In this document: positions 7,673-55,332 of the stretch, one piece after another
Layout: each line of letters opens with the position of its first letter
Position numbering within the stretch: position 1 is the stretch's first letter
Program-made: the position numbers and the translations under genes
The notes under the pieces: model-generated
Seen by the model: the letters and a program-made list of their open reading frames with translations, nothing else
Database searches by the model: none
Told to the model about the DNA's origin: nothing
Assembly (NCBI GenBank): GCA_019695305.1
Contig: JAIBAG010000007.1
Coordinates: 1 to 64,000, forward strand
Direction of reading: 5' to 3'
DNA: 64,000 bases
From: a bacterium
GTDB lineage: Bacteria; UBA10199; JAIBAG01

Positions 7673-7791
7673 TCTGTGAAATAACCTGCATTTACCTTCA
7701 CCCAATCCTAACGAACACTTAACATTTTTGTCATTAAAGCGTCACAATTAAAATCTACTCTCCTTTTCAGTTTTAAAGAGGAAGAGGGCAG

Positions 7792-7897
7792 GTAGTTTTA
7801 CTAACAAGTCGTCGGCAGATTTGCCGACAAAATCGACTTGTTAGTACTACAGGACCGCATGTTAGCCCAAGTGGGCTATCTATAGATGGCGATCCTG
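7792..7897 (+). ncRNA. Structured leader or small RNA upstream of the LysM protein
   Basis: Three nested or adjacent inverted repeats occupy the leader of the 7912 gene. The outer stem ACTAACAAGTCG (7800-7811) pairs perfectly with CGACTTGTTAGT (7834-7845). It is extended by GTAGT/ACTAC after a three-base bulge. Inside is a second stem, GTCGGCA/TGCCGAC (7811-7817 with 7822-7828). A further hairpin AGCCC/GGGCT (7864-7877) is enclosed by CAGGA and TCCTG. No poly-T run follows, so it is unlikely to be a simple terminator. It could be a cis-regulatory leader, a stand-alone RNA or a small mobile palindrome. Confidence 0.45.
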
Positions 7898-7911
7898 TTG
7901 TTAGGATACTG

Positions 7912-10641: not shown

Positions 10642-10736
10642 AAATTGACACAAAAAAGTCACAAAAACATCACCGTAATGAAGACAACTTTATTGTAAGG
10701 ATGCCGAAAAGAGGGGGAGATTAATGAGGCATTTTT

Positions 10737-12395
10737 ATGATCAAAAAAATATTTCCCTTAGTGTTTCTTTTTGCATTTGCAGCTTGTAGTAACGGACCCT
10801 TACCAGGCATGGGCGATGACAAACCGGCCGATGTTATTGCTCCGGCCATCATATCTTTTACAGCCGATAAAACTACTATTACTCAAGGCGAGAACGTTAC
10901 TTTAAGTTGGGAAACCGAAGCTGCGGGCGATATTATTTTAGACCCCGTTGGTCCTCAAACCGATCCTGTTGGAAGCGCCACACTTACTCCCGAAACTTCC
11001 ACCACGTATACTTTATCTGTTTATTCTCCCGATGCTCCTGCTTCTGAAGATGGAGAAGCTGTTGATAGTCAAAGTATTACCATTACCGTTAATCCCATAG
11101 ATGATGACGATACTGATGAAGGTGAAAATAATGATCCGTGTGCAACAGCGCCAAACCCAACAACATTAAAAAACGAATTAACCTTCACGGCCTCCCGCAC
11201 GGGTGTGTATGCCGGCGAATCGGTAACGTTAACGTGGAATAATGCGATGAGCGATAGTGATACTGTAGTAACGTTGCCAGACGGTACAAACTTGAGCGAA
11301 GCTTCGGGAACAGAAACAGTAGTTGTTACTCAAAACGGTACGGCTAAAATTCAAACTTCGGTGTGTGGTGTGACGGCAGAAAAAACATTGAGTATTACTG
11401 CTAAGGCGGCCATTCCTTTTAATTTACCCCCGGTGGCATCTCTTAGTGGAACCGATAGTAAAACGTGGGTGGGTACTACCGATGGAAAAGTTTATCGCAG
11501 CACCGATTTAGGAAAAACCTGGAATTATATTACAACCGCCAGTGGTATTTTAGAAAAGAATGAATCCAAAAAAGGCGAGTCGCCTATTGTGGCGGTGGCT
11601 TCGGGTGGCGATGTTTGCAATGGCGCTATTTTTATTGCCACGCAAAACGGGCATCTCTACCGCAGTTATGATGATGGTGCACATGCATCGGGCTTAACAG
11701 GCGGCCCCAATTATATGTTGGCAATTACCAAATCGGGCAGCCACGATGCCAAAGATTATTCCAAAATTTCATTTTTGCTCAAAAATCCCAAACACCCCAA
11801 AGAGCTTTTAATTGGCCATGAAGAAGGTTTGTGGCGTTTAAAAGATTGCACAGCCACCGGAGGTGTTACCGAAAATATTAGCAAGGTGAGCCTGTTTGAT
11901 AAAAAGCCTGTTACGCAAGGTATTAAGAATGGCAAAAAAGTTTTCGTTGTTTCAGGAGGTTCGGTTTACCAAAGTGACGATACGCTTACTTGGGAAAAAT
12001 CAAACTTTACCGGCAACTCGGGCATTACCTGGCTTGAAGCTAAGGGAGATGGTCTTTATGCCGGAAGTGCTACCACGGTTTATCAAACAGAGGATGCTAA
12101 TGAATGGAGTGTTGTTTCAAGCGGACACTATTCCATAACGGGTTTTGCTTTAGACGGTGCTAGTGAGCTGTATGGTGACTATCGCGGTTTAAAAATAGCA
12201 AAGGACACTAGTTTTTATTTGGATGGTATTGAAAGCGGTATTGGCCAGATGTGGTTTAAAGGTAATAGCGTTTGGATGCTTACCAAAGACAGCAAGTTGT
12301 ACATGTTAGATATAGTCAACTGGCAGGGCATGCTTAATTCCATAACATTCAACAAGATAAACTTGAACTTTAATGGGGCTACTTTGAAAAAATAA
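10737..12395 (+). CDS. Lipoprotein with Ig-like domains and a sialidase-type beta-propeller
   Basis: A signal peptide ends in a lipobox-like FAAC at residue 17, so the 552-residue product is probably a lipid-anchored envelope protein. Residues about 38-115 and 135-225 look like two Ig-like folds, each opening with a FTA motif and a G(E)xVTL(S/T)W strand. The linker between them is acidic (PIDDDDTDEGENND). The rest, from about 230, carries repeating blades with Asp-box-like signatures (GKVYRSTDLGKTW, GHLYRSYDDG, GSVYQSDD, TVYQTEDANEW), as in sialidase or photosynthesis-stability-type propellers. No catalytic residues could be assigned, so a binding or structural role is more likely. Two cysteine pairs may be oxidised. 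The next gene starts 17 bp on. Confidence 0.7.
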   Translation: MIKKIFPLVFLFAFAACSNGPLPGMGDDKPADVIAPAIISFTADKTTITQGENVTLSWETEAAGDIILDPVGPQTDPVGSATLTPETSTTYTLSVYSPDAPASEDGEAVDSQSITITVNPIDDDDTDEGENNDPCATAPNPTTLKNELTFTASRTGVYAGESVTLTWNNAMSDSDTVVTLPDGTNLSEASGTETVVVTQNGTAKIQTSVCGVTAEKTLSITAKAAIPFNLPPVASLSGTDSKTWVGTTDGKVYRSTDLGKTWNYITTASGILEKNESKKGESPIVAVASGGDVCNGAIFIATQNGHLYRSYDDGAHASGLTGGPNYMLAITKSGSHDAKDYSKISFLLKNPKHPKELLIGHEEGLWRLKDCTATGGVTENISKVSLFDKKPVTQGIKNGKKVFVVSGGSVYQSDDTLTWEKSNFTGNSGITWLEAKGDGLYAGSATTVYQTEDANEWSVVSSGHYSITGFALDGASELYGDYRGLKIAKDTSFYLDGIESGIGQMWFKGNSVWMLTKDSKLYMLDIVNWQGMLNSITFNKINLNFNGATLKK

Positions 12396-14546: not shown

Positions 14547-17500
14547 TTACTTAATTTCGACCATTTTCATCTTACTCCGTCCAAAAATTTCGGGTTCGTA
14601 AAACTCAAAGGCCAAAGCGCCACTCATTAAATATTTGCCGGCTGTGGTGGCGCGCACCGGGTAACGAATATGATAGGCTCCGGCAGGAAGATATTCGTCA
14701 CTCCATATTAAAGCATCATCCCTAATTTCTTGATGCACAAAGCCGTAACTCATGCCGTAATCGTCGGTAAACTCTACGTCATCATAGGGCGAATATCCTA
14801 CACTCGATGTGTCGCTTACATCCTCGGCTTCCATTTGGGCCGAGCGTGAACTGGTGGCAAGCTGCATATCAATAGGTTCAAAACCAGCAGGTAATGGGTC
14901 TTCAATGAGGACCTGATTTAAATTATTAGGCACAATTACCGTGATGTGGCCTTTGTAATTTTCACCGGCTTTAAACTCGCTTAAGGGATGCTCTTCCTTC
15001 ACATCATCTAACGCATAGTACTCGCGGTTAATGACCAGGCCTTCTTCACGCGTAGGGGTAATTTCGGGAGGAAGATAATATTTCATAAGCATATCGTAAT
15101 AAAGAGTTCCTGTTCCTTCTTTATTAAAGCTCACATCAACAGGCATGGTTTTTTTAGTAATATCGGTGAGTGGAATTTTAGACTGAGCCACCTCGGTGAT
15201 ATTTTGCGTTGTGAATTTTTGTTCCATTTTGGTATCGCCGCCAAAAATTACTTTGCTTAAATAATTGGTTTCGTCTTCGCGATAGGTATTAATAAAACTT
15301 TCACCCAACAAAATTAAATTTAAAGCGCTGGTGGTGATGTAACCATGATTTTGTTTTCTATTAAATAGATACGACAAGGCTTTAGCAATAAGCGGATCTT
15401 CCTTATTGTTATGAATAAGAGCGTTGGCCGCAAGTGCTGTATTGGTGACAGGATCACTCCAATATTCCGATGCCTTTTCCCATACCACATGGCGTGGATG
15501 GTGTTCGGCTAATGTTCCTAAACGGTTAGTCAGCATTTCTAGCTTATGAGACAGTTCCGGTGATGGATTTTTTGATTCAATATCGGCATAGGCCAAGGTT
15601 AAATAGGAGAGAGTGGGGATGTCCATTTTTTCAACAGGTTCATCTTTTAAACTACTCACCGTCCAATCGCTTAAACCATCACGCACTAAAACCCAAAGGG
15701 TAAAGGCTCTAAATGCTGTTCCAATTTTTTTATCGTTAATCACAGGCCATAAATAAGTTTTTAAACGCTCAACATCACCTTTCACCTCATAGTTCATATT
15801 CTTGGCCATAAGATAAGCTAAATACACCTGTGTACTGGGGTAATCACTGGGGTAAGGAGAACTGGGCCAATATTTCATACCGCCTGATGCGCTATCTTGA
15901 TAAAGGGGAAGACGATCCAAAGTATCCCTAATTTTATTATCGAGTATGGCCATTTTATCGGCCGTTGTTTTGGCGTTTCTTGTTTCAAATGGAGTAAGAG
16001 GTGCCAAGCTATCAAAATATTTCTCGCCAAAACGCTCGGTGTAGTTTTTAGATAAAAGCATAGCAATAAGGCTTGCCGATAGTTGCTCAGAACAATAATA
16101 GGGGAAACTTACAAGCGAACGCATAGGTTCGCTAATGGCAAGCCCCATGGAAGATTTTAAGCTGATGTCTACAAAACCCTTTTCTTGAGAAACCCCTTCT
16201 TTAGGTAAATCAATTTGTTCTTTTGCTTCCTTGTCGGTCACAAGTCCCATCGTGGCAACCATTTCGGGTTGGTACCGATCAATTACCGGGATTGTAGAAC
16301 TCATGGAATCTAAAATATTACCCTTGGAGTCTTGAGCCTCCACATCTATTGTAAAAAATTCTGAGCTGTGATGAATGCTCATTTCAAAAGGTATGGTAGT
16401 TTGGTTTTCGGCTTTAACCGTAAAGGGAAATTCTTTTACCTTAGATTCTCCATCAAATACGGCATCACCGCTGAGTTTAATCAGCAGTTTGCCGCTTGTA
16501 TCTTGAGGGTTGCGATTATTAAGTAATACTTTAGTTTTAATCATGTCACCCCAAGCTGCAAAACGAGGCAGGGCGGTTTGTAATACAATAGGGAGTGTAG
16601 ATAAAATGCTCACGCGATTGCCCCCTACAAAAGTATTGTCCGAAAGTGATAAATTATTGGTAGAAGAACGGTTGTTATCGTCCAGACTTAACAACACATT
16701 TTGCTTAGAAAAATCTTCCCAGGTTTTAGAATGGCTAATTCCTAAGGCTTCTACCACCCACGTTGTTGTGTTATCGGGAAGTGTAAACGAAAAAGACCCT
16801 TCTCCATTTTGATCGGTTTGTAGCAGAGCCACATAATGAGCGGTGTCTTTAAAAATGCGTCGTTTTTTATCTACACCGGTAGCATTTCCATCACCTGCTT
16901 TAAGCGAGATCATAGAGGAGGCAGAATTAACGCCGTTAGGCCGGTTATAGTAAAATTTTTCCACCAAATTAGGCAGTTGATAATCGAGTAGTTTGTAAAC
17001 GGCTTCGTCTACAACAGCTACAGCCAGGCTTGAGGCTTGGGGCTTTCCGGCAGGGTCGGTGGTTTTTACTTTAATGGTAACTTTGTCGCCAGGTCGATAA
17101 ACCGGCTTTTTTGTTTTGTCAGACGCGTCAGACTTGTCCGGTATAAGAGAGACTAAAAGCTTTTTCTGCTCCGGTTCCACTTTAATTTCGGTAGATCCAT
17201 TAAACAGCATAGGTGTTTGCGTTTTGTCACGACCCGCATGTGCCACCACATTAATAAATAAGTTGGGAATCATTCCCTCGGTGATGGGTACTTCAATAAC
17301 ACCCGCATTGCCTTCGTTGCCAATTTTACGCATTTCAGCTTTTAACAAGCGTCCACGTTCCAGTGTTACCAATGCATTACTCACAGGAACAAGTGATTTT
17401 ACTAAAATTTTTGCTGTATCTCCAATTTTGTAGACAGCTTTATCGGGCACAAGTTCCAGCTTTTGACGATCATTCATTTTCCAGGGCACATAACCGTCAC

Positions 17501-20500
17501 CATACGCATACACATCGGTTGCACTCCGGATAGTATTTCCTTTTTTATCGGTCGATTTTACAACAGCCCAGTAATAACCGGGCTTAGAAATTTTAACAGT
17601 GGCTTCTCCATTTCCATTACCATCGGTAGAGCCCGAGTCGGAATCAATTAGCGTATCTTTGGGTTCATAAATGTATTCCCAAAAACCACTCCCGTTTTTG
17701 CGCTCTATAAACTGATAGTCACGTTCATATAATTCAAATTTGTACGATTTATCGGCAGTAGGTTTGCCCTGTGTATTTATCGATACAATGTCAAAGGACG
17801 CTTTTTCATTTTCACCATAAACATATTTTTGAGGCGCTAAACCCAAATAATAGTCGGCTTTGTGCACCACAACATCGGTAGCAGTAGATACTTCTTGGTT
17901 TGAAGGGTCGGTTACATTTGCTTCTAAGGTAAGCACTTGGCTAGTGGCATATTTTTTAAGATCGGGTGTGTAATTGATTGTTAAATGTCCCTCATCATCT
18001 AAACTTACTTTATTATTTTTTATTTTTTTATCGTTAGCATCATTAAAAAAAGTGGAACTTTTGCGGCTGGCTAGTGCGCCTTTTGGGTCGTCGTAAAAGG
18101 AGCCGGCTTCACTTTTGGTCATATAGGAGTAATCGTATTCACCATAATACTCGCCTTCATAATCATACATGTTGCCCGTGCTATTATTTGCGTATAATAA
18201 ATCGGGATCCACAAAATTAAATCGCTCGTAACCCTCGGGTCTAAAATTGTAGGTGGTTGTCATGATAGACCAGCGGGTTTTAGCGCCTTTGAGTGCGGCA
18301 CCAAAAAAATATTCGCCGGTCACTGTCGCCTTAAGAGGATGAAGACTTACAATTTCCTCTTTTTCGGGCGTGATATCTACCTTGTAACCGGGCTTTTTGT
18401 AACTCGCTACCACAAACTGGCGTGAAAAAGTTTGGTTGGTAGATAAAATACTAATATTGTAATTTCCACGGGGGGTATCATCCTTATCATCCAGCGTAAA
18501 GGATCCCGATAAAAAACCGCCAACAGCAAGAGAGACGTCATCCTGCTTATAAATTTCACTGCCACTGGAGTCGGTAACACTTACCGAAAATGTTTCTCCG
18601 GCCGAAGGTGTTAAATAGTAACCCTCATATACTTGTCGTACCATGGCAGAAAAATTTACTTCTTGGCCAGGACGATAGATGGGACGGTCGGTATAAACAT
18701 AGGTGAAGTAATTTTTTGATGAGGTTAAGGGGTAATTGTAATCAAGCTCGTGCATAGTCAGACACGAATAGGCTTTAGTATCTTCTGTAAAAATTTCGGC
18801 ACAAAATTGGGTGCCATAGGTATCGGTAGTAGCCCATTGCCCTTCAGCAATTCCCATCCCGTCTTTATTGGTAGTAACAACTTTTGTGATGTTGGCTAGT
18901 CCATCCGGAATCAGATTGAGAGACACAGGTAAGTTTTCTACAGGTTTTCCCGTTTCAATATCGGTTACCCATGCCAGGGCATGATCGATATCGCGTTTTA
19001 AAGCAATGGCTACAGGCGTAATTTGTACAATAGAGAGTACCGAGCCCGCATGGGTTTGGCCAAGAGTAGGATCGCCGTTTACTTCAATAAGATAGTAGCC
19101 ACTGGGTAAATTTGAAAATTCGGGAGAATTTAAATCTAATTTAAAATTAAATTCCAGATCGGGCGATGAGTTATCGGGAGTAATCGACGCGCTTATCATG
19201 GCCGGCAATCGGTCTTGGTCGATTGTGTTGTTGTCGGTAAGGGGAATGTTCAAATAATTTGCAATATTATTATCCACATACGGGTAAATGTAATCTTGAT
19301 AGTTGTTAGGGTCATATTCTTTGCGAGGGTGATAGCTGTGAATGTATTCGGAATAAAAATTTGATTGGAGTTGATAGATGCGAGCTTTAATATTGGTGAT
19401 ATTGGTTGCGCGGTAGGGAATTTGCTTTGGGCCACGAAGGGATAGAATACTTTTTGTTAAGCCCGATTCTAGGGTTGATGGCGCGTGAAGTGTGCTTACA
19501 GTATATGAAGCTTCATTGCCTTCAAAGGTAGCGCCGCTGATAGCCTTTAATTTATGAGTGTTAAGCGTAAAAGTATATTTTTTGTTATAAAGATCTAAAA
19601 AATCGGCGCAGTAAGTTGTAAAACCTTTTATTGTATCTTTTTCATTCTTTTCATTAATCACCCAAAATGAATCACTTCCCGAAAAGTAATCACGGTTTTT
19701 TATTTCCGATTTGTCTGTCGCCTCAATTTTTAAGATGTTTTTGGTATCTATTCCTTCTACGGCTTGAGTGAATTTGTAACAAATCTGGCTATAGGTTTCG
19801 ACCGGGTTATTGGTTCCTGGCGAAAGTTGTTTTTGCGTATAGGTATCGTAAACTTTTTCAATGGTAAATGTTTGTGGCGGAGTACTGTAAGCAACGGTAT
19901 ACGGTGTAGTCATTCCAGCAGATGAATTTTTGGCCAATATACCAGCCGGAAGATTGATTTCGAAATCTTTTCCCCATGGTAAATCGCGGTTAAATCTTAT
20001 TTGTAAAATATGGTCGCCATCCAACCACGTTAGTTTGGTGTCGGGTGAAAATTTTTCACGAGTTGATTTGTCTAAAAATACAATTTTGCTTTCTACGTTT
20101 TGCGTATCCATAGCCAGGTTAAAAGTAAGTTCAATAACCGACTTATGTGGGTGGATTGTGTCGTTATTATAAGGTGTAGAGTTGATAATTTTTGGCGTAA
20201 GCGTAGTAAATTCCCAGTTCATATCCTGTTTTAAAACACCGCCATCAATAGCAGTAAGTCCAGCCGGAATGGTCATTTTATAAGTGGTGCCGGGGGTTAA
20301 AAGAGTAGTGGGGCGGTAAATAAAACCATGAGTGCCTAGCCAATAATATTTCCCCTCAATGGCGGGTGAAATTTTGATATCAATAGCCTGATCGCGTCCT
20401 TTATCAAGTGTTGTGAGCGGAATCATGGCACGATCAAACATAACCGTAATACCATCAACATTGAGTGGTACTTCTTTATCGGAAGGAGCTTTAAAAGTGA

Positions 20501-20594
20501 TATGCAGGTCGGGAGCTTTGTCATCTACTTTCTTTTTGCAAGCAGGTATAAACAATATAATGATTAAAAAGGTGATATATAATTTTAGTTTCAT
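14547..20594 (-). CDS. Bacterial alpha-2-macroglobulin lipoprotein with intact thioester
   Basis: At 2015 residues this is longer than typical bacterial alpha-2-macroglobulins (about 1650). It acts as a broad protease trap in the periplasm: attacking proteases are captured through a Cys-Gln thioester. The N-terminus is a lipoprotein signal with lipobox IPAC at about residue 19. Ig-like domains follow (FKAPSDKEVPL, then repeated strands), next the macroglobulin MG domains (including a YVYTDRPIYRPGQEVNF segment typical of the family) and the bait-like region. The thioester is CSEQ at C1501-Q1504 and is intact. The C-terminal helical thioester domain and receptor-like domain complete it. The gene lies 12 bp downstream of PBP1C, the conserved partner of this family, so both probably form one operon. 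Confidence 0.93.
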   Translation of the reverse strand: MKLKLYITFLIIILFIPACKKKVDDKAPDLHITFKAPSDKEVPLNVDGITVMFDRAMIPLTTLDKGRDQAIDIKISPAIEGKYYWLGTHGFIYRPTTLLTPGTTYKMTIPAGLTAIDGGVLKQDMNWEFTTLTPKIINSTPYNNDTIHPHKSVIELTFNLAMDTQNVESKIVFLDKSTREKFSPDTKLTWLDGDHILQIRFNRDLPWGKDFEINLPAGILAKNSSAGMTTPYTVAYSTPPQTFTIEKVYDTYTQKQLSPGTNNPVETYSQICYKFTQAVEGIDTKNILKIEATDKSEIKNRDYFSGSDSFWVINEKNEKDTIKGFTTYCADFLDLYNKKYTFTLNTHKLKAISGATFEGNEASYTVSTLHAPSTLESGLTKSILSLRGPKQIPYRATNITNIKARIYQLQSNFYSEYIHSYHPRKEYDPNNYQDYIYPYVDNNIANYLNIPLTDNNTIDQDRLPAMISASITPDNSSPDLEFNFKLDLNSPEFSNLPSGYYLIEVNGDPTLGQTHAGSVLSIVQITPVAIALKRDIDHALAWVTDIETGKPVENLPVSLNLIPDGLANITKVVTTNKDGMGIAEGQWATTDTYGTQFCAEIFTEDTKAYSCLTMHELDYNYPLTSSKNYFTYVYTDRPIYRPGQEVNFSAMVRQVYEGYYLTPSAGETFSVSVTDSSGSEIYKQDDVSLAVGGFLSGSFTLDDKDDTPRGNYNISILSTNQTFSRQFVVASYKKPGYKVDITPEKEEIVSLHPLKATVTGEYFFGAALKGAKTRWSIMTTTYNFRPEGYERFNFVDPDLLYANNSTGNMYDYEGEYYGEYDYSYMTKSEAGSFYDDPKGALASRKSSTFFNDANDKKIKNNKVSLDDEGHLTINYTPDLKKYATSQVLTLEANVTDPSNQEVSTATDVVVHKADYYLGLAPQKYVYGENEKASFDIVSINTQGKPTADKSYKFELYERDYQFIERKNGSGFWEYIYEPKDTLIDSDSGSTDGNGNGEATVKISKPGYYWAVVKSTDKKGNTIRSATDVYAYGDGYVPWKMNDRQKLELVPDKAVYKIGDTAKILVKSLVPVSNALVTLERGRLLKAEMRKIGNEGNAGVIEVPITEGMIPNLFINVVAHAGRDKTQTPMLFNGSTEIKVEPEQKKLLVSLIPDKSDASDKTKKPVYRPGDKVTIKVKTTDPAGKPQASSLAVAVVDEAVYKLLDYQLPNLVEKFYYNRPNGVNSASSMISLKAGDGNATGVDKKRRIFKDTAHYVALLQTDQNGEGSFSFTLPDNTTTWVVEALGISHSKTWEDFSKQNVLLSLDDNNRSSTNNLSLSDNTFVGGNRVSILSTLPIVLQTALPRFAAWGDMIKTKVLLNNRNPQDTSGKLLIKLSGDAVFDGESKVKEFPFTVKAENQTTIPFEMSIHHSSEFFTIDVEAQDSKGNILDSMSSTIPVIDRYQPEMVATMGLVTDKEAKEQIDLPKEGVSQEKGFVDISLKSSMGLAISEPMRSLVSFPYYCSEQLSASLIAMLLSKNYTERFGEKYFDSLAPLTPFETRNAKTTADKMAILDNKIRDTLDRLPLYQDSASGGMKYWPSSPYPSDYPSTQVYLAYLMAKNMNYEVKGDVERLKTYLWPVINDKKIGTAFRAFTLWVLVRDGLSDWTVSSLKDEPVEKMDIPTLSYLTLAYADIESKNPSPELSHKLEMLTNRLGTLAEHHPRHVVWEKASEYWSDPVTNTALAANALIHNNKEDPLIAKALSYLFNRKQNHGYITTSALNLILLGESFINTYREDETNYLSKVIFGGDTKMEQKFTTQNITEVAQSKIPLTDITKKTMPVDVSFNKEGTGTLYYDMLMKYYLPPEITPTREEGLVINREYYALDDVKEEHPLSEFKAGENYKGHITVIVPNNLNQVLIEDPLPAGFEPIDMQLATSSRSAQMEAEDVSDTSSVGYSPYDDVEFTDDYGMSYGFVHQEIRDDALIWSDEYLPAGAYHIRYPVRATTAGKYLMSGALAFEFYEPEIFGRSKMKMVEIK

Positions 20595-32787: not shown

Positions 32788-32951
32788 TCCCTTTGCCCCA
32801 GTCTCATGCCGTGGGGCCTATAGTCTCAAAATCGGACTCCCATCGGACTCAAGACCCCATTCATAATGCCCTTTCCAGTCATTTTCTAATCCGGTTACAA
32901 TAAATATATAATAATATCAATTACTTATAAAAGTTGCGAAAAATCGCAGTT

Positions 32952-32968
32952 TTGGCAGGGGGTTTGCT
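32952..32968 (+). promoter_or_regulatory. Sigma-54 promoter of the small-protein/subtilase operon
   Basis: TTGGCAGGGGGTTTGCT matches the sigma-54 consensus (TTGGCACG-N4-TTGCT) with the invariant GG (32954-32955) and GC (32966-32967) separated by exactly 10 bases. Only the base after TTGGCA departs from consensus. The expected start near 32979 leaves a 20-base leader before the AAGGAGG site (32984-32990) and the ATG at 32999. Confidence 0.82.
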
Positions 32969-32998
32969 TTAATAAGCCTAAGTAAGGAGGGATTGATT

Positions 32999-33487
32999 AT
33001 GGCAATAGAAAATAAAACATCAGGTGAAAGTGCCCAGGCGGGTTTAACATTAGGTGAAAGCCTTTATTATGGCCAGGCCGAAGCCGGTAATGCCAAAGGG
33101 GCGGCCGAAATTGAAAGTGCTACCGAACAGTTACGTGCTGTAACCGAAGCGGGTGTTACTTCCGATGATTCCTTACAAGGATTTAATTATCTCCTCAAAA
33201 TTGCTTTAGGCAGCCCTCATATTGGTGGTTATGTTTCTAAATTACACGGTTACTCTCCTAGCGAAGTAGCAACTAGCGAGTTTAAAATTTCTGATGATGG
33301 TGCCGATTTTGCCGATATGGATATTCATAATCCCGATAATGATCCCAAATATTATCGTTTACTGGCTGCCATTCAATTTAGTGCGGGCAAAATTTCAAAA
33401 ACGTTGTTTCAGCAATTAGGGCACACCAACGATATTGATTTTGATGGCTTGTTTAATGAACCCGCAGCTGACGCTCCCTTGGTATAA
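32999..33487 (+). CDS. Small acidic protein, first gene of the sigma-54 operon
   Basis: The 162-residue product has no signal peptide and no recognised family. The N-terminal 60 residues are Ala/Gly/Glu-rich (GAAEIESATEQL), the centre is mixed, and the C-terminus contains HNPDNDPKYYRLLAAIQF followed by a hydrophobic stretch. That segment recurs, with changes, in the product of the next gene (HTNPANDSKYLHLLFAVF), so the two are probably paralogs. Start choice: ATG at 32999 with a near-perfect AAGGAGG eight bases upstream; a TTG at 32993 would need a much poorer site. Probably cytoplasmic and highly expressed when the promoter is active. Confidence 0.7.
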   Translation: MAIENKTSGESAQAGLTLGESLYYGQAEAGNAKGAAEIESATEQLRAVTEAGVTSDDSLQGFNYLLKIALGSPHIGGYVSKLHGYSPSEVATSEFKISDDGADFADMDIHNPDNDPKYYRLLAAIQFSAGKISKTLFQQLGHTNDIDFDGLFNEPAADAPLV

Positions 33488-33529
33488 TTTTATTGGAGTT
33501 TAGGCTAAATTAATCTATAAGCGCACATT

Positions 33530-33913
33530 ATGACCATTAAGCCTCCACAGAGCATTACTCCCAATGTAGTTACTTCAACTACAGTATCAACAACAGCTTC
33601 TGCCAAAGGTCCGGTTGTTGCCACCCAGCCTCAGGTTAACCCCGAAGCGGTGGCTAAGGCTTTTAGCGAGTATAAAAAATTAAGGGGCAATCTTAAAAAG
33701 CCGTTCATGAGTGGAGCGGCCGGTTTGTTTACCGATAACGTTATTTTTCCTCAGGAATTACTCGATCACACCAACCCTGCCAACGATTCCAAATATCTTC
33801 ATTTGCTTTTTGCCGTCTTTGGATTAAAAGACGTGGTTTCGTATTTTGCTTCGGCAGAACAGTTTGAAGAAGATGAAAGCGATGTAGACGAGCAATCCGA
33901 TTCATTAGCTTAA
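33530..33913 (+). CDS. Small acidic protein, second gene of the sigma-54 operon
   Basis: This 127-residue product begins with a low-complexity Thr/Ser/Pro segment (about 1-45), has a short basic patch (YKKLRGNLKKPF) and then the NPANDSKYLHLLFAVF segment shared with the upstream protein. It ends in an acidic tail (EEDESDVDEQSDS). No signal peptide. ATG at 33530 has no strong Shine-Dalgarno, so coupling or a longer leader may be used. Function unknown; its position between the upstream paralog and the 1672-residue protein suggests a partner or substrate role. Confidence 0.6.
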   Translation: MTIKPPQSITPNVVTSTTVSTTASAKGPVVATQPQVNPEAVAKAFSEYKKLRGNLKKPFMSGAAGLFTDNVIFPQELLDHTNPANDSKYLHLLFAVFGLKDVVSYFASAEQFEEDESDVDEQSDSLA

Positions 33914-34030
33914 TCTGTCTTACCCAGGTTAAATCTATCTTGATCCTTCTGATAACAACTTGTTTCCACTTTCGTCCCAATTTCGTTATTTCATCGTAAC
34001 TTTAGATCATTTTTTACCGATAACTAGAGG

Positions 34031-37000
34031 GTGAAGCTCGATTTCATCATCTTAAATGGTTTTTTTAAAGAGAACCCCCAGCTCACAGAGGAGGAGCGTC
34101 AAGTCCTACAGACTTATGATACGACTAAATCCAATTCTGTGGATCGGGATAACCCCTTGCTTACCGATAATGAAGATTTAGGTGGTATTGTTTTCGATAA
34201 AACCGAACTAGCAGCCATACTAAATAATAATCCAATTTTTAAGCATGCCCTTCAGTTCGGTAGTTTGCATACCATGGCCATTCCGGGTTTTGACGATACT
34301 TACAGCCTTTTGGCCGATTATGTGCGGGATCATCTGGCCCAGGATTATTTTCAGGACTTGTGCGGGCTAGAGGGATTTCCGATACCGAAAAATGCCACTC
34401 TTACAGATGACCCCACCGAAAATTTAAAGCTGTATTTTCAATTTGTGGAGCGGGTGAAAAACGAATTTACTGTTTTGTCTGCAGTGGATCAACCCTCAGA
34501 TTTTTTAAGAAATACCCAAGTTGCTGGACGCCCTTTGTATCGGTGCCAAAAAGAGGAGCAAAAAGACGTACTGGGAAACGAGACGGGAACCATCTATCAT
34601 GTTTATATTGATTTGGGTGTTGTAGAACTTACTTGTTCCATAAAAAATGAGAATGATCCTCAATTTTTTACAAAATGGAACATTAAACCCATGGGTGATC
34701 CCTTATTTTGGGAAATGATTGACCCCACCAATAGCATGTCCTTGTTGCCTACTTTATTTCTTGCCGACATTGAAAAAAACTCAGATTGGCCCGCCGTTTT
34801 TGATGTAAACACAGCAGCATCTTCTTCTGCACCTATTCTTTTTTCCGAATTTGAAAATATCACTATTTCTTCTGGAGATTTGGAAAAAATAGACAGATTC
34901 ATCGATGGTATTAATTATGTCCGAGACTATAGTTATACAGAAAATGAGATAGCAAAAATTCTTATGGGGTATTTAACGGATGACACTTCTGTTGAAGTGG
35001 GTTTGGAGGCCGATACCATTACCATTACAAATGCAGAAGGTACTGTTACATGGGCGTTGAGGCAATTGTTGCTGAAACATGGTTACACTCTGGAAAAATA
35101 TGAAGATATCTCGGGTAGGGTTACGTATTATATTCAAAAAACCGATACCGTGGCCTGGCTTATCAATAAAGCCACCGGTGCCGAAAGGCTGGTGGCACTC
35201 AGTAAATTTCCTCTTAGGTTTTCCGAGGGTGATTTTAAAGGTTTTTTTAAAAAAATGGATGATAAGGATCTCCCTGGGAGGTTGACGTTTTTATTGCCGT
35301 ATTATGGAGGGTATGCCCGCATGAATTGGGCGACGGAGTTAAGAAATACCCCATGGCTGAGTGGATTAGTGGGCAATTTTAATGAAGAACAAATAAAAAA
35401 TGATTTATGCCTGTTTATGGATGATTGGAATTTGTATCAGGCCTTGTTTACCGAGCCCTGTATTGCTTTTAGAACAGGTGGGATGGAGGCCATGGATCAG
35501 GCCAGTGCTATTTTGGCGGCTTTGCAAAAAACAAGTACCCCCCGTATTGCCTTGGCGGCTTTGTTGCACATGGCTATGGGCCAAGGGAAGGCAGCAGATG
35601 AATTGCGCCAGGTTTTGCCTTCGGTTTTATCTCAAATAGATTATTTTATTCCAAAAGAGGCTCGGGAAAAAAAGAAGGGTGAAGTAACAGTTGAGACTCA
35701 AAACGAAGGTTTGGGAAATGCCTGGTACACCTGGCACCCGCAGCAATTTTATGAGATGGCGTCCCGTTTGGAGCTTATAACCCCAGAGCAATTAAAAGGA
35801 CATATTGCACTCCTCGATTTTGATTATTTTGCAACAGGTCTAAAAGCTATTGACAATAATTTTACCCTCACCCGTCATCCGTTGACTATAGACTTGCCCA
35901 AAATCACACCATCCGCTCCTAAAGAGGATATTCTCAATTTTGACCTTTTATCTCATTTTATAAAACGAGATTCCACACGCGAGAAACTGGGGTTATTACG
36001 GGCAGAAAAGAGTGAGTTAATGCTAATCGATGTGCTCACTCTGGATTGGGATAATGTCCAACGCGAGGATATACGCCGTGCCTTGGAACGCTATGCGCGT
36101 GATGACGAAGATGGGTTTGTACATATTGCGGCGGCAGTTGTTCTGCGGAGCAGGCCGGATGCACTGGATAGACTTACCGGAAGGGATGATAAAAATTTGA
36201 AATACGAGTTATTGCCTCCCAAGGCCCTGGCCAAAGTGGTGTTGAAGTATCCCAAAGTAGCCTCAAAAGCTCTGGAATGGCTGTTTATGAATGATGAAAA
36301 AAGGGCTATTGATACTCTTGAATATGCTCTTGGTTTTGTGCCTTATCATCCAGAAGGTTTTTGGGATAATGCCATTAAACTTTTGGTGGCATCGCTGCAC
36401 CCCAAGGCTTGTGCCGTGTTAACCATGGCGCGGTCTCTAAGCGATCTTAAGCTGGCAGCAAAAACTCTCAAACTCATTGATGATAAACTCAAATGCCCGT
36501 TTGATGCCGATTATTTTAAGGCCCTTTGTTTTGATCTGGAACAGGATTACAAAAAATATCAGGATCAAAAAGGAAGCGATGTTTATAAAACGGTTTTATT
36601 TTATGCTCTGTGCCGCAAATTGGAAGGGATGATGATTATTTATGGTGGCCCATTAACCTGGCACGAGGAGATGGAGTCAGGCTTTCAAGCTTTGTTTGGC
36701 ACAGAATTAACTATCTCTTTAAAATGTTTGTATTTTGAATGTGAATCCGCTGATTCTTTTGAAAGTTTGATGAACACCCTCACTTTTATCCAAAAAACTC
36801 TGGATGAATATAAGGCGGGTTATGGTGATTTAGAAATGGGGTATGAGGATGTGCTTTCGGTGATTTCAATGTATTTGAGCCACTATCCGGAACTGCGACA
36901 TGAACAAGAGTTATGGACTTTTGTTTTTGAGGCGCTGGATAAGGCCTTGGAGGCTGAAAAACCAAATCTTTATTCCGCTGGACGTCATGTGGAGTTGGAC

Positions 37001-39049
37001 GAGATCGCCAAAAAATTTGAGGCATTTATAAAAGAAGTTCCTGTTCCGGATAAGATAACGGTGCCTCCCACGTATCAAATGATGTTATTCTATTTGGGGC
37101 AATCCAACTATGCAGACGCAATATTCACGGCGGGAGCTGCAGAAAAAGGGATAACCCCGCTTACGGTAAAAGAGCCCTTTGATTACTGGCTCTATTTTTT
37201 CGATTCCAGTAGTTTTAATCCCCAAGAGGGCTTGCTGGCCATGTACGAACACCTTTGGCAAAAACATGGTCCCTTTTTTTTAAAAACGGAGGTCCCCACA
37301 TCGATAGCTATTGAAGGCTGGAAAAAGCAAGACTGCCTTCCCGCTTATCAGCTTTTTATGGCCTCTCGTGGCCAGTGGGGTGAGGTACATAGCATCCCAT
37401 ATGATCTCATCGATTGGAAAAATCCTTTTCATGCCAGGGTAATGAGCGCATACAAAAAAAACCTGGATACTTTTGTTCTAACTCCTGATTATGCAGATCC
37501 TTTAGACAGTACCAAGTACAATGAAAAACTTTACCCTCTCGATGATGTGCTGGTTTTTCTGGAGCGTTTGGCGAGTTTGGCCGCTTTAAAAATGCCGCAA
37601 GGGCCTTATGAGCGCGATATTTATAATTTGGAGAGTGATGAACTGGAGGCCTTGCTGGAAGCCTTGAAAAACAATATGGACCTTGTGTTGCAAGATATAG
37701 CAGACGCTCTTTATTTAGGAGCCAATGGGTATGCCATAGAAAGTGAAACCCCGGAAATGTTACGGAAAATAAAAGAGACAATCCCGGGTGATTCGGTGTT
37801 GGGTTATTTGTTTAGTTTGGTGCAGGCCATTTTGGGTGATGAGAATGCTATTAATACCTTATGGCAATTCCACGATGGGGAAAAAACACTTGCCTCGGAT
37901 ATCCGTTTTTTGGGCGATCAAGTGGGTAATCTGCTTTTTTACGGGGATGAATTTTTAAAACACCATAATCCCGCGCGTTTTTTTGGGATTCATACGCCAC
38001 AGGCTAATGCCAACCGTAATGTGGTGGCCACGGTGGAAATGGGCAAGCCCGATACGGCAATCAAAGCAATGGCTCCTCATATCCAATTATCACGCCATGC
38101 CCAACAGGCGGCTACAGCTTCTCATTCTACGTTTACTGCCCAAGTAGTTTTGGGGGGTACTAGTATTAACGGTGATTATCATGGAACGGTGCGTTCTTAT
38201 GTGGTGTCGGAAAAAGGACATATTTTTGAAGGAGTGGATGCTATTTTGGGACAGGTGTTGGCAGATGTGAGAAGGGGTAAAAAAACGGATGTGGTGAGTA
38301 TTTCGCTGGCTTCATACTTTATTCCCACCAGTCTTAATACTCAAGATTTGCTCAATTCGTCGATAGTGCATTCTATAAAAGCCAAACTTGCGGCTTTAAG
38401 TTTACACAGAATACCGGTAGTTATTGCGGCGGGCAATGAAGGCAGTGTAGAAATCATGGAGAGTAATGCAGTGCAATTAAATGATTTGGCTAAAATAAGC
38501 CCCCATTTTATTGTGGTGGGTTCTAACAGTGGGTTGCACAAAAAAGAAGGGGCAACATATTCTTTTATTTCAGGAAAGTTGCCTGATGAAGAACCGCGTC
38601 GCGTGAGTCGTTTTTCGTCCACAGGCAATCCATCGGCCCGTGTGGATGTGGTGAGTGTGGGAGAAGGCATTGATGTTTTTACCGGAGCCCTTTTTGAAAA
38701 AGTGGATGGTACCAGTTTTTCCACTCCTAATGTGGCGGCGGTACTAGCCACCATGAAACACTTAGCTCCTATGGCCACTGTTGAGATGCTGCAGGCCATT
38801 CTTAAAATGACGGCCACCGATTTAAAACAAGATACCCCTTTATCCGAGGGGGCAGGTGAGGTGAATACGCGTGATGCGCTTTATGTGGCCTCTATTATAA
38901 ATCCGTTTATGACGCACAAAAAACGTCTTCAAATAGCCGAAGAATTTGGCTACAAGCAGGATAAAGCCGAAGACCTAATTTGGCTTGCAAACCGGATACG
39001 CCAGCAGGTATGGTTTGGCAATGCGCATCGACAAAGTTATGGGGAATAA
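34031..39049 (+). CDS. Giant protein with helical-repeat body and C-terminal subtilase domain
   Basis: At 1672 residues this has no signal peptide, so it should be cytoplasmic. Residues 1-500 are mixed and I cannot assign them. About 640-1000 shows regularly spaced amphipathic helices (ALERYARDD, ALAKVVLKYPKVASKALEWL), HEAT- or ARM-like. A C-terminal subtilase domain starts near residue 1330: H1365 lies in SHSTFTAQVV, N1469 in AAGNEGS and S1562 in DGTSFSTPN. The expected catalytic Asp position is E1336 (VEMG, aligned to the V-I-D-T-G motif), so activity may be low or altered; D1341 is a weaker alternative. Start is GTG at 34031, with no well-spaced Shine-Dalgarno. It follows two small paralogs under the sigma-54 promoter. 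I infer a protease or scaffold acting on its neighbours. Confidence 0.75.
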   Translation: MKLDFIILNGFFKENPQLTEEERQVLQTYDTTKSNSVDRDNPLLTDNEDLGGIVFDKTELAAILNNNPIFKHALQFGSLHTMAIPGFDDTYSLLADYVRDHLAQDYFQDLCGLEGFPIPKNATLTDDPTENLKLYFQFVERVKNEFTVLSAVDQPSDFLRNTQVAGRPLYRCQKEEQKDVLGNETGTIYHVYIDLGVVELTCSIKNENDPQFFTKWNIKPMGDPLFWEMIDPTNSMSLLPTLFLADIEKNSDWPAVFDVNTAASSSAPILFSEFENITISSGDLEKIDRFIDGINYVRDYSYTENEIAKILMGYLTDDTSVEVGLEADTITITNAEGTVTWALRQLLLKHGYTLEKYEDISGRVTYYIQKTDTVAWLINKATGAERLVALSKFPLRFSEGDFKGFFKKMDDKDLPGRLTFLLPYYGGYARMNWATELRNTPWLSGLVGNFNEEQIKNDLCLFMDDWNLYQALFTEPCIAFRTGGMEAMDQASAILAALQKTSTPRIALAALLHMAMGQGKAADELRQVLPSVLSQIDYFIPKEAREKKKGEVTVETQNEGLGNAWYTWHPQQFYEMASRLELITPEQLKGHIALLDFDYFATGLKAIDNNFTLTRHPLTIDLPKITPSAPKEDILNFDLLSHFIKRDSTREKLGLLRAEKSELMLIDVLTLDWDNVQREDIRRALERYARDDEDGFVHIAAAVVLRSRPDALDRLTGRDDKNLKYELLPPKALAKVVLKYPKVASKALEWLFMNDEKRAIDTLEYALGFVPYHPEGFWDNAIKLLVASLHPKACAVLTMARSLSDLKLAAKTLKLIDDKLKCPFDADYFKALCFDLEQDYKKYQDQKGSDVYKTVLFYALCRKLEGMMIIYGGPLTWHEEMESGFQALFGTELTISLKCLYFECESADSFESLMNTLTFIQKTLDEYKAGYGDLEMGYEDVLSVISMYLSHYPELRHEQELWTFVFEALDKALEAEKPNLYSAGRHVELDEIAKKFEAFIKEVPVPDKITVPPTYQMMLFYLGQSNYADAIFTAGAAEKGITPLTVKEPFDYWLYFFDSSSFNPQEGLLAMYEHLWQKHGPFFLKTEVPTSIAIEGWKKQDCLPAYQLFMASRGQWGEVHSIPYDLIDWKNPFHARVMSAYKKNLDTFVLTPDYADPLDSTKYNEKLYPLDDVLVFLERLASLAALKMPQGPYERDIYNLESDELEALLEALKNNMDLVLQDIADALYLGANGYAIESETPEMLRKIKETIPGDSVLGYLFSLVQAILGDENAINTLWQFHDGEKTLASDIRFLGDQVGNLLFYGDEFLKHHNPARFFGIHTPQANANRNVVATVEMGKPDTAIKAMAPHIQLSRHAQQAATASHSTFTAQVVLGGTSINGDYHGTVRSYVVSEKGHIFEGVDAILGQVLADVRRGKKTDVVSISLASYFIPTSLNTQDLLNSSIVHSIKAKLAALSLHRIPVVIAAGNEGSVEIMESNAVQLNDLAKISPHFIVVGSNSGLHKKEGATYSFISGKLPDEEPRRVSRFSSTGNPSARVDVVSVGEGIDVFTGALFEKVDGTSFSTPNVAAVLATMKHLAPMATVEMLQAILKMTATDLKQDTPLSEGAGEVNTRDALYVASIINPFMTHKKRLQIAEEFGYKQDKAEDLIWLANRIRQQVWFGNAHRQSYGE

Positions 39050-39092: not shown

Positions 39093-39851
39093 ATGAAAAC
39101 CGGTAAAAATCAGATACTCTACGGTAAAAATCCGGCCCTCGAATGTCTCAAGGCTTCTCGCCGTCCTGTTTTTGAAATCTACCTTCAAGATACACTTTTT
39201 AAATCACTGCAATCCGAACTTATTCCTTTTCTTTCGCCATCGTTTAAAGCGTTTCATAGTGTCAATAAAACCAAGCTCGATTCGTTAACGCAGGGCGCTT
39301 TGCATCAAGGAATTGTATTTTCTGTAGGAACTTATCCTTATGCCGATGAAGGCGATATCATTGAGCGTGGTGATAAACCGTCTACGCTAGTGTTATGTGA
39401 TTCACTCCAAGATCCTCAAAATTTAGGCGCTATATCCCGCAGTGCTTTGTGCTTTGGTGTAGATGCGCTGGTGTGCCCCAAAGACCGTGCTGTAGAAGTA
39501 ACACCCGCGGCTGTTAAAGCCTCTGCCGGAGCCTTGGAACATTTGGCCGTTTGCCGCATCACCAACCTCATTAACTTCATGAAAGATTTAAAAGACGCCG
39601 GATATTGGTGTTATGGGGCCGATATTAAAGGTAAAAAAACTCTTTCTCAGATCGAATTCCCCCAAAAAACGGCCTTGGTTCTGGGCAGTGAAGGCGAGGG
39701 GATGCGTCGCCTCACCGCCGAAAACTGTGATGAGCTTTTTAAAATCCCCATGGCCCAGGGTTTTGATTCGCTTAACGTAGCGCAGGCGGCTTCTGTGATT
39801 TTTTACGAACGCTTTTCTCGGAGCACGGGGCACGGGAACCGGGAATCGTAA
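39093..39851 (+). CDS. rlmB: SpoU-family 23S rRNA 2'-O-ribose methyltransferase
   Basis: The 252-residue product has the SpoU/TrmH fold. An N-terminal substrate-binding domain ([10 protein letters not shown]) is followed by the knotted methyltransferase core with [16 protein letters not shown] (motif 1), [11 protein letters not shown] (motif 2) and [10 protein letters not shown] (motif 3). It methylates 2'-O of a guanosine in 23S rRNA, G2251 in Escherichia coli. The last residues (STGHGNRES) are encoded by a dispersed palindromic repeat that overlaps the gene end, so the C-terminus is not conserved. Cytoplasmic. Confidence 0.9.
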
Positions 39852-53212: not shown

Positions 53213-53520
53213 TCATAAAAATGTTCTTTCATTTTTGACGTAGGAGTCCAGCAAACTTCTTTTTTCCCAAACAGCAGTAATTATTTTCAAAAGGTTTGCA
53301 ATATATCAAAAACCTTCATTTAAAAGACATGACGCCTACTGACTTTTAAAGCTAATCATAGCTGCAAAATTTGCAGCCCTATTTAGTAGGGGGTATCCCT
53401 ATGTGTGATAAATACTTATAAAATATAGCTTTTTTAAAAAAACTCAATTTTTTCAACTGGCATAAACTTTGCTTTAGTTATCGGCATACTATTGTGCATC
53501 CGTCTTTAAAAGGAGAATGT
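53213..53520. other. Intergenic region before the radical SAM operon
   Basis: The 308 bases hold no gene. They contain an inverted repeat GCTGCAAA-A-TTTGCAGC (53361-53377) about 80 bases upstream of the sigma-54 promoter, a suitable place for an enhancer-binding activator. The region is otherwise AT-rich, with no clear terminator for polA. Confidence 0.6.
53456..53474 (+). promoter_or_regulatory. Sigma-54 promoter of the radical SAM operon
   Basis: CTGGCATAAACTTTGCTTT has GG (53459-53460) and GC (53471-53472) separated by 10 bases, with TGGCA and TTGC both intact. The start codon at 53521 is about 50 bases downstream, with AAAGGAG nearby. Confidence 0.82.
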
Positions 53521-55332
53521 ATGGAAACTTCGGTAATTGAAAAAACTCAAGACAATGCGGTAACTAAAAATCCGGTGAATGTGGCCTTTGTGAACATGCC
53601 GGCTCGCTGGATTGATAAATCGGAATACATTACAAAAGAAAGTAAACTCTTAGACATTCCCTTTGGCCTTCCTTTAGGTATTTTATATCTCTCTTCTTAC
53701 GTTAAAAAATACAACAACAATTCACTGGGTAAAGTAGGGTGCATCGATTATCAAACACACATGCGTGAATCATATCAGTATGACGATTGTGATTCTTATA
53801 TTGAACAAGTAGCCGAACATTGCCTCGATTTTGAACCGGATGTGATTGCCTTTTCGGTTATGTTTTCTACCGCCCATTATTTTGCTTTAAAAGCCAGTGC
53901 TCATCTTAAAAAGAAATGGCCCAATGCCGTTATTATCTTTGGAGGGATGCATTCTTCCAATGCTGTAGAACGCATTTTAAAAAGTGACGATGTAGATTAT
54001 GTGTGCAAAGGCGAGGGTGAAGAAGCTTTTACTGCTTTTGTAGATAATTTTCACGATCTCAAAAAAAGAAATTCTATCAAAGGAATTTATAATAGAGAAG
54101 CGATAGCTGTTTCGGGGTTTAAACCCATTACCGATTATATTGCCGATTTAGATAAAGTACCTTTGCCCGATTGGGATCTTTTAGATATGGAATCATATAT
54201 TCGTCAGGCTACACGGATGCGTCGTTTTGAATATGATGAAGATGTACTGTATGAAAAACGCGCGGCCATCATGATGACCTCGCGTGGTTGTCCGTTTAAA
54301 TGTACCTTTTGTGCTTCCCATACAGTACATGGTAGAGCCATGCGTTACCGCTCGGTAGAAAATGTAATGGAAGAAATGCGACTTATCCATAAAAAGTTTG
54401 GTGTAAACGTATTTGCTTTTGAAGACGATATGTTTGTTTGTAGCCGCAAACAGGCCGAAGAATTATTGCAAGAATTTATTAAGTTTAAGGAAGAAGTGGA
54501 AGGTTTTGAAATTATTTTTCCCAACGCCTTAAACGTGAATGCCACCACACACGAAATTATTGATCTTATGAAGGCTGCGGGTATGAAGATGGTTAATATT
54601 GCCATCGAATCAGGATCACCTTATGTGCAGCAGCATATTGTAAAAAAGGGTGTTAACTTGGGTAAGGCAAAAAAAATGATTGCCTACTTAAGAAGCATAG
54701 GCATCATCACCCGTACCGGTTTCATCATCGGTTTTCCGGGTGAAACCAAAGAAATGATGAAGGAAACCATTGAGTATATCCACGAAGTGAATGCCGATTG
54801 GTCTAATATCAATATTGCGGCTCCTCTGGTAGGATCTGAAATGTATGACCAGTTTCAAAGCATGGATGTCCTTCCTCCCGATGAAGTGATGTGGGATAAG
54901 GATTTTGATAAATTAAAGCGCGACCGCGAAATTTCCACCATGATTGCTCGCCAATTTGATACCAAAGAGGTAAGCGCCGTTGAATTGTGCGAAATTCACT
55001 ATAAAGCCAATTTGGAAGTGAACTTTTTAAACAATGTAAACCTGAAAGAAGGCAATTTTGTTCAAGCTGAACGTCTTTTTGAAGGAATTACTCGTGAATA
55101 CCCTTTCCATATTTTTGGATGGTGGGGTAGAATGGTCTCATTTGCTGGTATGGGAAATACTGAAAAAGCTCTTGAAGTGAGAGATAAAATTTTAGATCTC
55201 ATTGAAAACGATTCTAAATCCAAAAATATGTACGCCAAATACGGGCATATGCTGCCTGGCTTTGAGCCTAACAAAAATATAGAAACTCAAGGCGAATTTT
55301 TACCCGGCGGTTGGGGTATGGTTCGCTTTTAA
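53521..55332 (+). CDS. B12-binding-domain radical SAM protein
   Basis: The 603-residue product has an N-terminal cobalamin-binding-type domain (about 20-190, FGGMHSS, DYVCKGEGEEAF). The radical SAM motif CPFKCTFC lies at C257, C261 and C264. Family members methylate unreactive carbons or rearrange lipids and peptides. C-terminal residues from about 490 are helical and resemble a TPR-like segment (NFVQAERLFEGITREYPFHIFGWWGRM). ATG at 53521 with an AAAGGAG site; first gene of a sigma-54 operon with TylF and PhyH proteins. No substrate can be assigned. Confidence 0.85.
   Translation: METSVIEKTQDNAVTKNPVNVAFVNMPARWIDKSEYITKESKLLDIPFGLPLGILYLSSYVKKYNNNSLGKVGCIDYQTHMRESYQYDDCDSYIEQVAEHCLDFEPDVIAFSVMFSTAHYFALKASAHLKKKWPNAVIIFGGMHSSNAVERILKSDDVDYVCKGEGEEAFTAFVDNFHDLKKRNSIKGIYNREAIAVSGFKPITDYIADLDKVPLPDWDLLDMESYIRQATRMRRFEYDEDVLYEKRAAIMMTSRGCPFKCTFCASHTVHGRAMRYRSVENVMEEMRLIHKKFGVNVFAFEDDMFVCSRKQAEELLQEFIKFKEEVEGFEIIFPNALNVNATTHEIIDLMKAAGMKMVNIAIESGSPYVQQHIVKKGVNLGKAKKMIAYLRSIGIITRTGFIIGFPGETKEMMKETIEYIHEVNADWSNINIAAPLVGSEMYDQFQSMDVLPPDEVMWDKDFDKLKRDREISTMIARQFDTKEVSAVELCEIHYKANLEVNFLNNVNLKEGNFVQAERLFEGITREYPFHIFGWWGRMVSFAGMGNTEKALEVRDKILDLIENDSKSKNMYAKYGHMLPGFEPNKNIETQGEFLPGGWGMVRF

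Follow-up and report, generated by a model that had tools for sequence, protein, structure and literature searches.

The window analysed here, a 64,000-nucleotide stretch of a contig from a bacterium of the UBA10199 lineage, contains four genes that follow one another on the forward strand behind a σ54 promoter (Table 1). Two small genes, which we call P1 and P2, are followed by a very large one, BIG, which starts 117 bp after P2 and ends 43 bp before rlmB. For P1, the ATG at 32999, with AAGGAGG, is preferable to the TTG at 32993. We found nothing in the literature on the P1-P2-BIG locus or its architecture.

Table 1. Features of the P1-P2-BIG-rlmB locus; positions are counted from the first nucleotide of the window.
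Feature	Position	Strand	Remarks
Upstream dyad AGTCTCAAAATCGGACT, AGTCTC-N4-TCGGACT	32822..32838	+	probable enhancer-binding-protein site (UAS)
IHF-like site TCAATTACTTA	32917..32927	+	36 bp upstream of the −24 box
σ54 promoter TTGGCAGGGGGTTTGCTT	32952..32969	+	precedes the first gene in 9/9 genomes read
P1, 162-aa acidic protein	32999..33487	+	pI 4.4
P2, 127-aa acidic protein, NPxND family	33530..33913	+	pI 4.7
BIG, 1672-aa protein with C-terminal S8 (subtilase) domain	34031..39049	+	GTG start, pI 5.0; E1336/H1365/N1469/S1562
rlmB, SpoU-family 23S rRNA 2′-O-methyltransferase	39093..39851	+	Pfam SpoU_methylase 4e-43

The initial annotation had proposed a near-consensus σ54 promoter with GG-N10-GC spacing, and on this point it holds in full. 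The spacing is exact, the genome of the window (G000) encodes RpoN (PF00309, E = 2e-17, G000:C26), and exact TTGGCAN6TTGCWT sites number 22 in that genome against 0–1 for the reversed control pattern, with an ORF downstream of every one of the 22. TGGCAC, the first pattern applied genome-wide, proved over-strict, failing to pick up the site of the window itself. One of the 22 sites precedes a gene for an AmtB-like ammonium transporter, named by eye; AmtB is a classical σ54 target. By comparing genomes we also found a σ54 site 5′ of the first small gene in G007, G002, G006, G004 and G003 and, in another family, in G031, G017 and G021, the count of nine with the window covering only genomes with readable upstream DNA. 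Taken together, these sequence comparisons indicate that the −24/−12 element is a genuine σ54 promoter. Many of the sites in the window's genome (L054–L075) have the motif start about 28–33 nt from the start codon, implying nearly leaderless σ54 transcripts. Elsewhere in the window, a further σ54-like site with one mismatch (CTGGCATAAACTTTGCTT, 53457-53474, forward strand) lies shortly 5′ of a 612-aa ORF (53494-55332).

The surrounding sequence resembles that of enhancer-dependent σ54 promoters, in which a UAS, an IHF site and the −24/−12 element are served by an NtrC-type activator: besides the GG-N10-GC core, the window has an IHF-like site lying between this core and the dyad, and its genome encodes a candidate GAFTGA activator as well as RpoN. 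It differs from them in what is driven, namely two uncharacterised small genes and the rlmB-ffh translation block of this order, and in the many nearly leaderless targets of its genome. The IHF-like sequence TCAAN4TTA lies 34–37 bp upstream of the promoter in the five order members for which the sequence reaches far enough (the weakest copy being TCATATAGATA of G004) and 45–47 bp upstream in the other family, and it accompanies 14 of the 22 σ54 promoters of the window's genome compared with 0.54 in shuffles.

Exact copies of AGTCTCN4TCGGACT occur 13 times in the genome against at most two for the control, and 12 of these lie 37–139 bp from a −24/−12-like site, some of those sites being degenerate. 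The dyad thus appears to mark a candidate regulon in the window's genome. In four relatives it is recognisable ahead of P1, 98–119 bp upstream, with 1–3 mismatches (one in G003, two in G004, and three each in G002 and G006, which makes the latter two weak). The genes sharing it encode the toxins BrnT and TumE, two IS200/RAYT-like (transposase) proteins, a 23S-IVP-like protein, and CHAP-like and L,D-transpeptidase-like proteins that both lack signal peptides. The last two likenesses are seen near dyads at L150, in ORFs 7466-8191 (L,D-transpeptidase-like, with GSEGCLTIP) and 10311-11006 (CHAP-like); the L,D-transpeptidase likeness was judged by eye in a protein with no Pfam match. On the same contig, C14, 2–5 kb from three dyads, is the gene for a 1660-aa fusion of Ser/Thr kinase, TPR, GAF, σ54 activator and Fis parts with a GAFTGA motif (L150:1398-6380), and on the strength of its position this kinase-bEBP is a plausible activator at the dyad.

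The products of P1 and P2 were described at the outset as two small acidic proteins with a common NPxNDxKY segment, and the resemblance is above chance: BLASTP gives E = 8e-4 over 19 aa, hhalign of P1 against the P2 family gives E = 5e-8 (a single comparison, uncorrected for a database), and P1 residues 81–125 match P2-family proteins in three other genomes. The segment common to both is 45 residues long, and from these alignments we regard P1 and P2 as acidic paralogs. Their N-termini are disordered and rich in Pro, Ser and Ala. As had also been claimed, none of P1, P2 and BIG carries a signal peptide, there being no hydrophobic N-terminal segment in any of them. Neither Pfam nor NCBIfam holds a family for P2, the P2 profile had no match in the PDB, and an AlphaFold model of P2 from six sequences (pLDDT 55) was too poor for a fold search. 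The comparison set comprised 46 genomes of the class, eight from this order and none from the window's own family apart from the window's; about 12 of the 46 have a credible P2, and G018 adds a doubtful match with a stop in it. Among named genomes, the nearest that have P2 are for the most part ‘Deltaproteobacteria’ MAGs, of which one bears the label UBA10199, and the P1/P2 family was seen only in this UBA10199-type phylum.

Gene order in the relatives places P1 and P2 beside rlmB. In G007, G002, G006, G004 and G003 (loci L040–L044) the three genes follow in the order P1, P2, rlmB, and the P2-rlmB junction is tight: a 4-bp overlap at L040 and L044, 0 bp at L043, 9 bp at L041 and an in-frame fusion at L042. 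In this last case (L042:6249-7376, G006) P2 and RlmB share one continuous frame, which may be a gene fusion or a sequence error. In several of the five, rlmB is followed by ffh, rpsP, rimM and trmD, and rlmE/FtsJ stands divergently upstream of P1-P2 in four of them, as it also does in G010 and G011, which belong to other families. We looked for BIG at all five loci and found it at none. Thus a neighbourhood comparison of the NPxND genes returns rlmB, not BIG, as the partner that is conserved within the order. Families f8, f9 and f14 differ: there P2 comes after another small gene, Y, and has no rlmB next to it, making an RlmB-specific role doubtful. Y represents a second phylum-specific small family (DYEDFRKRVLALP...EGHEDF) and is found 5′ of P2 at L027, L028, L045, L046, L029 and L047.

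Among 290 genomes BIG has a single full-length homolog, in G004, and a profile built from its first 1280 residues matches only G000 and G004. The two proteins align from first to last residue, so that both the start and the tail that follows the S8 domain are covered; identity is low (about 22% in the N-terminal part). In G004, however, the BIG homolog lies on contig C27 and P1-P2-rlmB on C17, and the two are unlinked. Since P1-P2-rlmB occurs without BIG in the relatives and the only homolog is unlinked, we conclude that P1-P2-rlmB is the conserved unit and that BIG is a lineage-specific addition. A recent foreign origin was considered and rejected, the G+C content of BIG (0.39–0.45) being equal to that of its neighbours, and we found no mobile-element or compositional signature at the gene.

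The G004 homolog has a σ54 promoter of its own (TGGCATTAATTTTGCT, 32 nt from the ATG), with an IHF-like site 35 bp upstream, and BIG is therefore linked to a σ54 promoter in each of the two genomes known to have it, so that co-regulation, rather than linkage, may be what is conserved. We consider it unlikely that this arose by chance; our estimate, a single comparison, is a few per cent, taking roughly 47 excess σ54 sites (looser sites in G004 number 50 against 3 for the control) for a genome with about 2000 genes. The AGTCTC dyad is absent from the G004 BIG promoter, and a common activator for both BIG genes is for this reason no more than a possibility. Within the window, BIG is likely to be co-transcribed with P1-P2, being on the same strand and separated from P2 by a gap in which we found neither a σ54 site nor a convincing terminator; an internal promoter within these 117 bp is possible.

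The initial annotation had read P1, P2 and BIG as one three-gene system, and the corresponding explanation would be that BIG is a cytosolic protease co-encoded under σ54 with its cognate partners, inhibitors or substrates, P1 and P2. The single apparent transcription unit of the window and the σ54 promoters that drive both BIG and P1-P2 in each of the two BIG genomes speak for such a system. Nevertheless we consider it very unlikely, as BIG is unlinked to P1-P2 in G004, ten of the roughly 12 genomes with the P2 family have no BIG, and P1/P2 are kept beside rlmB where BIG is missing. Nearly all carriers of P1-P2 or of P2 thus do without BIG, and an attractive three-part reading that came from adjacency in one genome is corrected by comparison. 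What probably holds is that P1-P2 and BIG are co-regulated in the window's genome; they do not amount to a three-part machine that is conserved.

The C-terminal subtilase domain attributed to the 1672-residue protein was readily recovered, Pfam Peptidase_S8 (PF00082) matching BIG residues 1365–1603 with E = 3e-15 and 56.7 bits (cut-off 21.8). Of the subtilase motifs that had been reported, those around His, Asn and Ser are kept, but a catalytic Asp motif was not identifiable in either BIG or its G004 homolog. H1365 shares its Pfam column with the catalytic-type His809 of a G023 protein, and N1469 (the oxyanion Asn) and S1562 lie in intact motifs that are also kept in G004. The Pfam match begins only at profile position 56, which is the His. 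The best Asp candidate in BIG, VATVEMG, carries Glu1336, and its G004 counterpart is Glu1311 in YIEQEKPD, only 9 residues before the His. With no Asp identified, protease activity of BIG is doubtful, though the Glu might take its place or the Asp might lie elsewhere. Alternatively, BIG might be a catalytically dead pseudoprotease that serves in scaffolding or binding, for which the Glu in both proteins and the short Glu-His separation in G004 would argue; yet His1365 in the catalytic column and the Asn1469 and Ser1562 motifs are kept in both, which would be unexpected after a long-lost activity, and we hold loss of catalysis to be a tentative possibility. A single-sequence AlphaFold model of the C-terminal part (pLDDT 37) was too poor for active-site geometry or fold, and a local S8 profile built from relatives collected one canonical sequence and added little.

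Compared with Peptidase S8 in general, BIG shares the significant C-terminal match with its His, oxyanion Asn and Ser motifs, but lacks an identifiable Asp motif, a signal peptide and a propeptide, and has more than 1300 residues of N-terminal sequence without assignment and a conserved tail after the domain. A profile of the N-terminal part gave chance-level kinase matches only against the PDB. The G023 protein mentioned above (L018:5486-8722, minus strand) resembles BIG in having a long N-terminus, a terminal S8 domain and no obvious signal peptide. Unlike BIG, it has canonical D/H/N/S motifs and a HEAT_2 match in its HEAT-repeat part, and the two can be aligned in the S8 part only.

The IetS and other PADLOC subtilase defence models have the S8 fold in common with BIG. 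With the dyad regulon, which brings together toxins, transposase-like proteins and signal-peptide-less CHAP or L,D-transpeptidase-like proteins, and with the patchy distribution of BIG, these matches could be taken to mean that BIG acts as an effector in defence or self-poisoning, with a large sensor part joined to a C-terminal protease, within a stress/toxin regulon. We think this unlikely. The PADLOC matches are generic to S8, confined to the S8 region and weak (E 2e-4 and worse, with IetS at 0.008 at best), BIG lacks a mobile-element or compositional signature, and the G004 gene has no UAS. No IetA-type ATPase partner was found in the window ORF list at the BIG locus, where the neighbours are rlmB, lysC and speA, and we rejected a filing under IetAS/PADLOC defence on the grounds of the weak generic matches and the missing IetA neighbour.

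The disordered Pro/Ser/Ala-rich N-termini of P1 and P2 might also suggest that these and other regulon products without signal peptides leave the cell by a type III-like route, and an SctV/FlhA-like gate protein is encoded in 44 of the 46 class genomes. This seems highly improbable to us, given that the window's genome has a single FliP homolog, located in the flagellar operon, and that G004 has P1-P2 yet a lone FHIPEP gene. We note separately that lone SctV/FlhA-like export-gate genes are present at G000:C18:40409-42400 (L090) and in G004:C4 (L092); FHIPEP occurs in 44 of the 46 genomes, and a gate protein that is an orphan and yet almost universal would be strange.

We favour, with fair confidence, a σ54 unit P1-P2-BIG-rlmB in which P1-P2-rlmB is conserved and BIG has been added to the same σ54 programme in one lineage. 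In this model, a bEBP bound at the AGTCTC-N4-TCGGACT dyad, possibly the kinase fusion, would activate Eσ54 at 32952-32969, helped by IHF-like bending, and transcription would then run through P1, P2, BIG and rlmB. In the lineage of the window, BIG would have come to lie between P2 and rlmB by insertion or relocation. Its product is most likely cytosolic and made conditionally, with a long N-terminal part that may recognise something and a C-terminal S8 domain that would be either a divergent protease or a pseudoprotease. P1 and P2 would be small, partly disordered acidic proteins that act together with the translation and rRNA-methylation functions encoded beside them and are not obligate partners of BIG. 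The regulatory and organisational side of the model is well supported at the level of sequence, by promoter architecture, conservation, gene order, paralogy and family limits.

For a phylum without genetics, the analysis supplies a well-supported promoter map (UAS, IHF-like site and −24/−12 element) with a candidate regulon. It also names a family of small proteins that is confined to the phylum and associated with rRNA methylase genes, and describes a two-member giant S8 family in which the active site differs from the textbook triad. A bolder interpretation is that the signal-peptide-less proteins (the NPxND small proteins, the giant Glu-His-Ser subtilase-like protein, the CHAP/L,D-transpeptidase-like proteins and the toxins) form a phylum-specific σ54 programme, a single stress or antagonism response wired to rRNA methylation through rlmE/rlmB, with BIG as founding member of a class of giant S8 proteins that are cytosolic and have a non-canonical triad; we regard this as quite unlikely. 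Elsewhere, the window also contains an unusually large ORF for a 2015-aa lipoprotein-like protein (MKLKLYITFLIIILFIPACKKK...) on the minus strand (14547-20594).
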